Shown: positions 3,136 through 8,274 of the stretch, piece by piece
Position numbering within the stretch: position 1 is the stretch's first letter
Layout: the number at the start of each line of letters is the position of its first letter
Assembly (NCBI GenBank): GCA_023205875.1
Contig: CP060759.1
Span: 1-64,000, forward strand
Origin: Chloropicon primus
Lineage: Eukaryota; Chlorophyta; Chloropicophyceae; Chloropicales; Chloropicaceae
Length of the DNA stretch: 64,000 nucleotides
Direction: 5' to 3'
Program-made: the position numbers and the translations under genes
The notes under the pieces: model-generated
Seen by the model: the letters and a program-made list of their open reading frames with translations, nothing else
The model's database searches: none
Told to the model about the DNA's origin: nothing

Positions 3136-4142
3136 ATGAACCAAAACAACAACAACAACAACAACAACACGAAGACGAAGACGGCGGCTGGTGGTGGTGG
3201 TGCGGGGGACAAGAAACGTGCACCCGGGGGTAGGGCCGAGGACGAGGACAAAAACACGGCTGCTGCTGCTGCTGCACTGGAGTTGGAGAGGGAGGAGAAG
3301 AGGAAGAAGATGCAACCGCCGAAGAAGAGACTGTATCGGACGAGGGCGCACAGCAATCCCCTGAACGACCAGTCGTTCAAAGTTCCTAGGCACCCATCCG
3401 AGGTGAACTGGGCGGAGCACTTTCCTGCGGTGGCGAAGAACCCCGAGGCCAAGCTCGAGGTCGAGAACGTGGATGTCGGCTGCGGCTTCGGTGGGTATCT
3501 GCTCAAGCTCGGGGAAGTGTACCCCGACCAACTGAGCCTGGGGCTGGAGCTCAGGGACAAGGTGACCGAGTACGTGGCAGATAGGATCACCGCGCTGAGG
3601 GCCGAGGAGGGGGGGGAGGGGGGGGAGGGGAAGGAGGGGTGCACGTACGAGAACGTCGCCGTGCTCAGGGCGAACGCCCAGAAGGACCTCCCCCACTACT
3701 TCAGGAAGGGGCAGCTGAGGCGGATGTTCTTCCTGTTCCCTGACCCGCACTTCAAGGCGTCGAACCACCGAAGGAGGATCATCAGCGAGCAGCTTCTCGA
3801 CGAGTACGCCCACTTCATCCGCAGCGGCGGCAGGCTTTACACCATCACCGACGTCGAGGAGCTCGGGGCCTGGATGAAGAGCCACCTGGACGCCCACCCT
3901 TTGTTCGAGCGGGTGGGGGACGAGGAGCTGGACGGGGGCGGGGACGAGGCCGCCAAGTTCCTGCCGTCCGCATCGGAGGAGGCCCAAAAGGTGAAAAGGA
4001 ACGAGGGAAAGGTACGTTTTGCTTGTTGCGTTGTGGAGAAAGGGAGGGATTCTCGTTTCTCTCCGCCGACTGGTCGACTGACACGCTTGGCTTCTCCTTT
4101 TTCTTTTCCCAGACTTACCGGTCCGTGTACAGGAGGCGGTAG
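3136..4142 (+). CDS. TRM8: tRNA (guanine-N7-)-methyltransferase, TrmB/METTL1/Trm8 family, one intron
   Basis: Predicted 301-residue SAM-dependent enzyme making m7G46 in tRNA, in eukaryotes with a WD40 partner (Trm82/WDR4). Exons are 3136-4011 and 4113-4142; the 101-nt intron has gtacg donor and cccag acceptor. Splicing restores the family's C-terminal end (TYRSVYRRR); the unspliced reading would give an unrelated tail. Motifs: SAM-binding GCGFGG (115-120), GLELR (136-140) and the signature FPDPHFK (201-207). The N-terminal 60 residues are low complexity (Asn run from an AAC repeat, then Ala and Gly runs), and 159-166 is a Glu/Gly insertion within the fold. The ATG at 3136 is the first after the AC-rich leader. 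Confidence 0.93.
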
Positions 4143-4564
4143 AGGTTTGGGGTTCGTTCCCAAAGGAGTGGAGCAGTGCGGAAGGGGTCCGCGTCTTTAG
4201 CGTTGAGGAGGATCGAGGGTCCATGCAATGCAATGTAATGTTTTGGTTCCTTATTTATAAGTTATCTATTCTTCCTCTTGGTCTTGGTCTTGGTCTTGGT
4301 CTCCCTCCTCGTTGTCGTTGTCGTCCTCGCTCTTGTTGTCCCTCGTTCGTTCGTTCCCCCTGGCCGGGATTGTCCTTCCCCCTTGGAGGAGAGGCCCCGC
4401 CCGAGCAGGAGGAGGACGACGAGGACGACGAGGGCGAGGAGGACGACGAGGGGGACACCCGCACAACACAACACACACAACAACACACGACACACGACAC
4501 ACGGAAGACGGGGACGAGACGAACAAAAACAAAAACACCGGAAGAGGGAGACGTCGTCGATGAG
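4143..4564. other. spacer with G/T- and GAC-rich simple sequence
   Basis: After the TrmB stop come an AATGTAATG stretch, a CTTGGT repeat (4275-4302), GACGAGGACGACGAG-type purine repeat (4410-4450) and an ACAACACAC leader (4460-4505). The frame is open upstream of 4565, but its residues derive from these repeats, so I treat this as leader. Confidence 0.6.
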
Positions 4565-7003: not shown

Positions 7004-7014
7004 AAAAAAAAAAA
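7004..7014 (-). terminator. RNA polymerase III T-run terminator of permuted tRNA gene
   Basis: Eleven consecutive T on the minus strand, 9 nt after the 5' half of the tRNA. Its position after the 5' half, with none between the two halves, supports one precursor carrying both halves in permuted order. Confidence 0.85.
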
Positions 7015-7023
7015 GATCGTCTG

Positions 7024-7111
7024 ATGCGAAGCGAGCGCTCTACCATATGAGCTACAACCCCGTCGTCTCTTGCTGTTGGAGTTGGAGAGAATCGAACTCC
7101 CTGCCTCTCGC
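7024..7111 (-). tRNA. circularly permuted tRNA-Ala (anticodon CGC)
   Basis: On the minus strand the 3' half comes first (7111 down to 7077): anticodon-stem strand GCGAG, variable loop, T arm GGGAG-TTCGATT-CTCTC (B box), acceptor strand CAACTCC and discriminator A73. A 15-nt linker (7076-7062) follows, then the 5' half (7061 down to 7024): GGGGTTG acceptor, D arm (A box) and CTCGC-TTCGCAT. Joining the halves gives a standard cloverleaf. The acceptor is GGGGTTG/CAACTCC with one G-U pair, the anticodon stem is CTCGC/GCGAG, and the loop is TTCGCAT with anticodon CGC. The junction lies in the anticodon loop, where CAT occurs at both ends. No 3' half lies downstream, where a T-run ends the transcript. 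Permuted tRNA genes, matured through a circular intermediate, are known from Cyanidioschyzon and small green algae. Confidence 0.9.
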
Positions 7112-7317
7112 ATGTACACTGTGACGTCACTCACCAAAAAACTTCTGGTGCTGACATTTACGGGCTTTCATCCCTTATGTATCCCTGGCCCGCGAAAACA
7201 CGGTCAAAGAGGGGCCGCGCTCTTCTCTCGCTCTCTCCCAAAGTACCTCGTGCTACAATAAAAATGCCAATCATAACTCATCCTCTCTCCATTTCAATTC
7301 CTCTCTCTCGCTCTCTC

Positions 7318-8274
7318 TCAGCGATTCCCCTGCTGCTGCAGCAGCCTCTGCCTCGCCTTCTCGAACTCCTCCTCCGTGGGCTCCGCGCCCCCCTTCTTCT
7401 TCCCCTTCCTCGACTTCTTGTTGCTCTTTTTCTCCTTGTCGCTCCCGTACTTGTCCTCCAGGCTCCCCAGCAGGGACTCCATCCTGCCCCTCTGCTTGGC
7501 CCGGATCTGGAGGGCGAGGGAGTCCAGCCCCCCCGCGCCGGACCCCTTCTTCTTCTTCTTCTTCTTCTCCTGGTGGAGCTTGCCGATCTTCTTCGCCCTC
7601 GCCTTCTTGCTGCTCGCCCCCCCCTGCTTGCGCGCCCACCTCTCGAACCGGGTGCCGGGACCCCCGTGGTCCGCGACCTCCCCCGCCCCGACCGCCGCCC
7701 GGACGACCTCCAGGAACCTCGGGCCGTCCTCCGCCGGCCGGGAGCAAAGCACGTAGCAGAACACCTTGTCCATGTCCCCCTCGAACTCCCCGTAGTACCG
7801 CAGCAGGTCCGACCTCTCCTCCTCGCTGCCCCTGTACCTCTGCTCAAAGGCCTCGATGTCCTCCTCGGTCACCGGCGCGAAGACGGACCGGTAGTACCGG
7901 TACAGCTCGTCAAAGTCCTTGCCCGAGAGGTCGGTGCCCATGTCCCTGTCGAAGTCCAGGGAGCCCGTCTCGTCGTAATAAGCCCGCTTCTCCGGGTCGC
8001 TCAGCACGGAGAAGATGTGCTGGACCTGCTGGAACTTGGCCTTGGCCTCCTCCAGCAGAGCAGCTGCGTTGTTGTCGTCGTCGTCGTCGTTGTTGTTGTT
8101 GTTGTTTGCCTGGACCTTGTCCGGGTGCATCCTGAGCGCGAGCTTGTGGTAGGCCTTCCTGATCTCCTTGGCGCTGGCGTCGCTCTTCACCCCCAGCACT
8201 CCGTACGCGTCCACCCCTCCCCCTCCCCCTCCCCCTCCAGGCGACGAAGGCGGTGTCCCCATCTTCTTCCCCAT
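7318..8274 (-). CDS. DNAJC9: J-domain protein, DNAJC9-like
   Basis: Predicted 318-residue Hsp40 cochaperone. The J domain (about 22-102) has an intact HPD at 50-52, so it should stimulate Hsp70. An Asn/Asp run (57-69, from simple repeats) is inserted just after HPD in the loop before helix III. The segment after it (DELYRYYRSVFAPVTEEDIEAFEQRYRGS) is typical of DNAJC9, a nuclear J protein and histone H3-H4 chaperone in animals. The C-terminus is Lys-rich and basic, consistent with a nuclear role. The start is ATG 8274, with a second Met at 8262. The upstream spacer carries a long (GTCGTG)n array. Confidence 0.85.
   Translation of the reverse strand: MGKKMGTPPSSPGGGGGGGGVDAYGVLGVKSDASAKEIRKAYHKLALRMHPDKVQANNNNNNDDDDDNNAAALLEEAKAKFQQVQHIFSVLSDPEKRAYYDETGSLDFDRDMGTDLSGKDFDELYRYYRSVFAPVTEEDIEAFEQRYRGSEEERSDLLRYYGEFEGDMDKVFCYVLCSRPAEDGPRFLEVVRAAVGAGEVADHGGPGTRFERWARKQGGASSKKARAKKIGKLHQEKKKKKKKGSGAGGLDSLALQIRAKQRGRMESLLGSLEDKYGSDKEKKSNKKSRKGKKKGGAEPTEEEFEKARQRLLQQQGNR

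Follow-up and report, generated by a model that had tools for sequence, protein, structure and literature searches.

Near the start of a Chloropicon primus contig, a short stretch of the minus strand carries the two halves of an alanine tRNA in reversed order. Is this a gene whose product can be matured into a functional tRNA, or is it a dead relic, a split tRNA or a product of chance? We examined the locus within the first 64,000 nucleotides of contig CP060759.1 (hereafter the window), which are the start of contig 6 in a genome of 17,584,162 bases and 20 contigs. The evidence makes it highly probable that C. primus has here a genuine nuclear gene for tRNA-Ala(CGC), circularly permuted with a type II (37/38) junction and probably working.

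Gene order and position of the junction

On the minus strand, a leader, the tRNA 3′ half, a 15-nt linker, the 5′ half, a 10-nt trailer and a run of 11 T residues follow one another in the sequence. The features, in the order of transcription, are as follows (R1 is the covariance model described below).

7155-7181, minus strand: TATA-like TACATA (7181-7176), then AAATG (7159-7155), upstream of the tRNA gene
7113-7132, minus strand: leader, including the GTGACGTCAC palindrome at 7121-7130 (sequence and fold)
7077-7112, minus strand: 3′ half of tRNA-Ala(CGC), positions 38-73, including the B box (ARAGORN on the joined halves; R1 match)
7062-7076, minus strand: intervening sequence of 15 nt, from the acceptor 3′ end to the acceptor 5′ end (sequence)
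7025-7061, minus strand: 5′ half of tRNA-Ala(CGC), positions 1-37, including the A box and anticodon CGC (ARAGORN and R1)
7015-7024, minus strand: trailer, predicted to be cut off at 37/38 (sequence)
7004-7014, minus strand: 11-T run, resembling an RNA polymerase III terminator (sequence)

The reversed halves, the linker and the T run are thus all where the sequence-only reading, an earlier description made from the letters of the window, had placed them. With its 3′ half upstream of its 5′ half on one strand and a short spacer in between, the locus has the arrangement of a type II permuted gene. Joining position 37 to position 38 restores the anticodon stem and a 7-nt loop, which sets the junction at 37/38 and agrees with the earlier proposal of a break in the anticodon loop. 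The trinucleotide CAT is common to both edges, and a cut anywhere inside it gives an identical product; the cut point is therefore ambiguous, as had been pointed out before.

Halves that are separate in the DNA might also be expressed as separate transcripts, pair through the anticodon and acceptor stems, and be joined in trans, as happens with the split tRNAs of some archaea. Here, however, the halves lie only 15 nt apart, the linker (7076-7062) contains neither a T run nor a TATA-like word by reading alone, and the T11 run comes after the 5′ half.

Upstream of the locus, on the same strand, an open reading frame for a DNAJC9-like protein (7318-8274, minus strand; DnaJ and HTH_DNAJC9 domains) ends about 200 bases from the tRNA gene. 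Positions 1-210 of the window consist of degenerate CCTAAA-type repeats, which fits a telomere end at the start of the contig and agrees with the telomere repeat given for C. primus in the published genome description (PMC12301720).

Identity of the joined tRNA and tests against chance

ARAGORN calls the joined 73-mer a tRNA-Ala(cgc) in which the acceptor, D, anticodon and T stems are all paired, in accordance with the cloverleaf and anticodon proposed from the sequence. The joined molecule has a G3:U70 pair, which we take to be the alanine identity element. Folded alone, it has a z score of −1.87, with 9 of 200 shuffles folding equally well. An ARAGORN search of the window for linear tRNAs comes back empty, and a scan of the window with Rfam returns no RNA family at the gathering score.

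Two approaches addressed the permuted order itself. Within a duplicated segment, a permuted tRNA reads as a linear, intron-bearing tRNA, which ARAGORN can recognize; applied to duplicated 150-nt segments, the program gave a single match in the window, the permuted Ala locus. None of three initial shuffles gave a match, yet at least one match occurred in 54 of another 200 dinucleotide-shuffled windows, which makes this procedure loose and insufficient as a sole test. We therefore rely on R1, a covariance model of a 37/38-permuted tRNA that was built by permuting nine linear tRNAs from this genome in silico and giving them random linkers. The initial alignment had 15 rows, of which six were removed, five for a variable loop that misaligned the anticodon stem and the sixth, Ala(TGC), for independence; the training set contains neither an Ala tRNA nor the window gene. 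R1 matches positions 7112-7025 with 57.6 bits and an E-value of 1.3e-17 (E-values are rough), whereas the second-best match in the window reaches 11.3 bits. A circularly permuted tRNA-Ala(CGC) gene, as first proposed, is thus the best reading of the locus.

The frequency of weak matches in shuffled windows is the one observation in favor of a chance resemblance or an assembly artefact. Against it stand the score of the independently trained R1 and the similarity of the joined body to the linear Ala tRNA of the same genome, with which it shares 64 of 73 positions (88%).

An anticodon CGC would be of use to the alga, since GCG accounts for 55 of the 146 Ala codons in four Pfam-supported open reading frames. 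The permuted-Ala pattern had no match in either the viral or the prokaryotic collection, as expected for an algal gene.

Comparison with linear tRNA genes

The Rfam tRNA model, with which 63 of 285 candidates were scored, identified 33 linear genes over the cut-off and one weak match below it (L119). ARAGORN on selected stretches added Ile(AAT), Val(TAC), Val(AAC), tRNA-Sec and one gene re-read as Thr(CGT). The resulting 38 linear tRNA genes compare with 46 tRNA genes published for C. primus RCC138, where tRNAscan-SE 2.0.4 was used (PMC12301720); our list is incomplete, as expected isoacceptors such as Ala(AGC) were also not seen.

The sole linear Ala gene among the 38 is Ala(TGC), which has a 53-nt intron at 37/38. 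It resembles the window gene in its body, in the position at which the tRNA is interrupted and in having a U32 complementary to intron base −3; it differs in its anticodon and in the normal order of its halves. The nine differences between the joined exons of the one and the joined halves of the other comprise anticodon base 34, two D-loop bases and six bases in three compensated pairs (5-68, 27-43 and 52-62). Pairs 5-68 and 27-43 each span both halves, with one base in each. As the differences retain pairing, the tRNA body is intact. The compensated pairs could predate the permutation and have arisen in a linear ancestor, in which case they would speak for an intact body but not for function after the permutation. 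By eye, the leader and trailer show no resemblance to the ends of the Ala(TGC) intron, and hence no trace was found of an origin from that gene.

A permuted gene usually has no linear counterpart for the same anticodon, though this is not a requirement. No linear Ala(CGC) was seen among the 38 linear genes of our incomplete list. The genome search for a normal copy that had been proposed as a check was carried out with the joined 73-mer at E-values up to 10 and returned only the gene's own two halves; this search is insensitive to diverged copies, having also missed Ala(TGC), and a diverged linear Ala(CGC) could have escaped it.

These comparisons bear on the possibility that the locus is a dead, unprocessed relic, in which a 3′ half came to lie beside a 5′ half when a linear tRNA-Ala gene was tandemly duplicated or rearranged. 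Against this, the locus shows no sign of decay: every stem is paired, and the differences from Ala(TGC) preserve pairing. Furthermore, a linear parent was not seen, in a search of limited sensitivity.

Further permuted tRNA genes in the genome

A genome survey, in which B boxes were located by short patterns and R1 was run on the surrounding stretches, covered 201 loci besides the window. It included all sites of GGTTCGAWTCC (33 of 33) and GGTTCGASYCC (96 of 96), the first 100 of 266 sites of GGTTCRANYCC (contigs 1-5), 16 of the 50 sites of AGTTCGANYCT (12 newly added, 4 already included) and 10 of the 12 sites of GGTTCAAWTCC (5 newly added, 5 already included). Among the 201 loci of this partial survey, six more permuted genes stand out by their R1 scores.

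L048: permuted Arg(ACG), 60.8 bits
L170: permuted Glu(TTC), 46.3 bits
L070: permuted Ser(CGA), 43.9 bits
L136 and L137: permuted Glu(CTC), two copies, 39.7 bits each
L077: permuted Ser(TGA), 36.4 bits

The best score below the six, 28.1 bits, lies over a linear tRNA (L004). When the halves of each of the six were joined, ARAGORN called the expected tRNA; the 3′ half of Ser(TGA) had been re-read by eye for this purpose, R1 having misplaced the variable arm. T runs follow five of the six, and none is present in the 30 bases shown after Arg(ACG). All seven genes, the window gene included, have one layout, with linkers of 11-47 nt. As the survey was partial, seven is a lower bound.

The presence of six similar genes elsewhere in the genome weighs on every alternative. 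Together with the R1 score and the similarity to Ala(TGC), it leaves a chance resemblance or an assembly artefact with practically no probability. Along with the 15-nt spacing and the T11 run after the 5′ half, the recurrence of a single layout with short linkers makes halves transcribed separately and joined in trans very improbable as well. The relic interpretation would, in addition, have to accommodate six further loci with joined bodies that ARAGORN accepts.

Two lower-scoring loci were considered as permuted genes and rejected. L119 (18.9 bits; contig 4, about 559.8 kb) looks like a degenerate copy of a Lys-like tRNA whose intron-like insert resembles the insert of Lys(CTT) (L011), and L064 (17.1 bits) looks like the surroundings of the linear Ile(AAT) gene.

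Transcription signals and processing enzymes

Permutation places the B box ahead of the A box, and upstream TATA-like sequences may consequently carry transcription, as argued by Soma (2014; PMC3978253). The TACATA and AAATG of the window gene belong to a pattern, a TATA-like word followed within 3-25 bases by AAAT(G/T) or similar, that precedes 11 of 33 linear tRNA genes (the 38 minus four near-identical copies and tRNA-Sec); in 300 dinucleotide-shuffled sets the mean was 0.4 and the maximum 3, a contrast whose strength is overstated, as the pattern was picked after the sequences had been viewed. Three of the six distinct permuted genes have the same pattern in front of them, namely Ala(CGC), Arg(ACG) and Ser(CGA). 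The TATA-like element upstream and the T11 run downstream of the window gene both speak against a relic.

Domains for the endonuclease/ligase route named in the sequence-only reading are present: the genome encodes the catalytic domains of a tRNA-splicing endonuclease, with two PF01974 matches, on C3 and C7, and an RtcB protein, for which PF01139 matched over the whole model. The PF09511 ligase profile had no match in the genome, but its control matched nothing either.

An open reading frame at 3136-4200 on the plus strand of the window, about 3 kb from the tRNA gene, matches Methyltransf_4 (PF02390; 142.6 bits), a family that includes the tRNA m7G methyltransferase TrmB.

Pairing around the junction

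The minimum-energy fold of the precursor contains the anticodon, acceptor, D and T stems and a helix between leader and trailer. In this fold, CGTC of the leader (7126-7123, within the GTGACGTCAC palindrome) pairs with GACG of the trailer (7021-7018), and GTGT of the leader (7119-7116) pairs with GCAT, which is made up of positions 35-37 and the first base of the trailer, in a helix of four pairs. These helices are candidates for the bulge-helix-bulge-like motif that a type II permuted gene would have at its junction. The A at leader position −3 (7115) could pair with U32 by complementarity, although the fold leaves the two unpaired with each other. The fold energy of the whole precursor is unremarkable (z = 0.04; 100 of 200 shuffles are equally good), and 37% of 500 shuffles are as good as the window gene in leader/trailer pairing, which is not significant. 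This lack of an advantage over shuffles counts in favor of a relic. Weighed against the intact body, the flanking signals and the related genes, it leaves a dead relic improbable, and we continue to read the locus as a permuted gene.

The other five distinct permuted genes compare more favorably with shuffles: four beat about 94% of leader/trailer shuffles and Ser(TGA) beats 87%. Relative to shuffles, a gene's own leader and trailer gain −3.6 kcal/mol on average, and leaders swapped between genes gain −1.2 kcal/mol (s.d. 3.0, 30 combinations). Of 23 linear intron-bearing tRNAs, 21 have a base 32 complementary to the intron base third from the end (−3); of the two that do not, L030 is of uncertain reading. 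The proportion is 32% with shuffled ends and 75% with real ends exchanged at random between genes, so that much of this complementarity reflects shared base preferences. It is found in three of the six distinct permuted genes, the window gene among them, in a comparison of small numbers.

The palindrome to which the sequence-only reading drew attention is indeed present at 7121-7130. It carries no special weight: ten-base palindromes are common in the window (85 versus about 62 expected), and we rejected it as a special signal.

A model for maturation

The gene order, the intact tRNA body, the splicing-endonuclease domains and the RtcB gene are established here, and for transcription, cutting, circle formation, end processing and charging we draw on published work on other algae to propose the following pathway. 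RNA polymerase III would start upstream, guided by the TATA-like element, and produce one transcript comprising leader, 3′ half, linker, 5′ half and trailer that ends in the T11 run. The leader would pair with the trailer beside the anticodon stem, and the tRNA-splicing endonuclease would then cut on both sides at 37/38. A ligase, probably RtcB, would join the two tRNA ends into a circular RNA, from which RNase P and tRNase Z would excise the linker between positions 73 and 1, whereupon CCA would be added.

Linear genes for Glu, Arg(ACG), Ala(CGC), Ser(CGA) and Ser(TGA) are absent from the 38 linear tRNA genes seen. We tentatively entertain the idea, to which we are not yet inclined to commit, that both Glu isoacceptors and these four others are encoded by permuted genes only, that RtcB closes the circles and that C. 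primus might thus depend on tRNA maturation through circular RNA for translation.

Relation to known permuted tRNA genes

Permuted tRNA genes are a known kind, of which Soma (2014; PMC3978253) tabulated 34. In that table, the green algal genes have their junction at 37/38 with one exception, and those of the Mamiellophyceae (Ostreococcus lucimarinus, O. tauri, Micromonas pusilla and Micromonas sp. RCC299) are taken from Maruyama et al. (2010). The sequence-only reading had named small green algae among the expected hosts, and C. primus is such an alga; it belongs, however, to another class, the Chloropicophyceae. The type II genes of the Mamiellophyceae resemble the window gene in being nuclear genes of green algae with a 37/38 junction and a short linker (11-64 nt in the tabulated green algae versus 15 nt here), and some have an AT-rich region upstream (PMC3978253). 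Ser(CGA) and Ser(TGA) are permuted both in the Mamiellophyceae and in C. primus, whereas Ala(CGC), Arg(ACG), Glu(CTC) and Glu(TTC) of C. primus are absent from the 34-gene table (PMC3978253).

In the red alga Cyanidioschyzon merolae (Soma et al. 2007, as described in PMC3978253), the gene order is the same and maturation passes through a circular intermediate, as proposed here for C. primus. C. merolae has a permuted Ala(TGC) gene and, as here, an upstream TATA-like sequence and a T stretch, but its Ala gene is of type IV (59/60) and not 37/38 (PMC3978253). Permuted genes are also described for the Amorphochlora nucleomorph (PMC4494063). In another green alga, Auxenochlorella UTEX 250-A, the tRNAscan-SE set was incomplete and permuted genes were then found, their anticodons being given in a supplementary figure (PMC12636532, 2025); the four passages of that paper with the word 'permuted' do not name Chloropicon. 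A further paper that contains both words, PMC13353863, has them in its reference list only.

The word 'permuted' is absent from the main text of both Chloropicon genome papers (PMC6731263, PMC12301720). The published annotation relied on tRNAscan-SE for tRNAs (PMC12301720) and may well lack the permuted genes. Among titles and abstracts, with subscription papers and supplements outside reach, we found no report of permuted tRNA genes in Chloropicon and nothing that links Chloropicon with tRNA splicing; for the Chloropicophyceae as a class, likewise, we found no earlier report in the searchable literature. If they work as proposed, the genes described here would extend permuted tRNA genes to the Chloropicophyceae and add the isoacceptors Ala CGC, Arg ACG and both Glu to those of the 2014 table (PMC3978253). 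With at least seven permuted genes and many linear tRNA introns in 17.6 Mb, the C. primus genome is a good testbed for how permuted genes arise; it also suits testing whether the endonuclease reads permuted and linear junctions alike, given their 32:−3 complementarity (3 of 6 versus 21 of 23).

Sequences adjoining the other permuted genes

The two Glu(CTC) copies, L136 and L137, lie on opposite strands of contig 5 at about 490.7 kb and 493.1 kb, approximately 2.4 kb apart, and have an identical 47-nt linker. A dispersed repeat, GCTCCGTGAGA...GATTCGGTGAGAGACGTTA, at times with GAGGCGGCGAAACAACAGTCGCCTC, is found directly 3′ of certain tRNA genes or tRNA-like copies (L003, L008, L016, L048, L082, L119, L170 and L201). 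It adjoins two permuted genes, Arg(ACG) and Glu(TTC), but not the window gene, and could represent an element whose insertion sites lie next to genes transcribed by Pol III.
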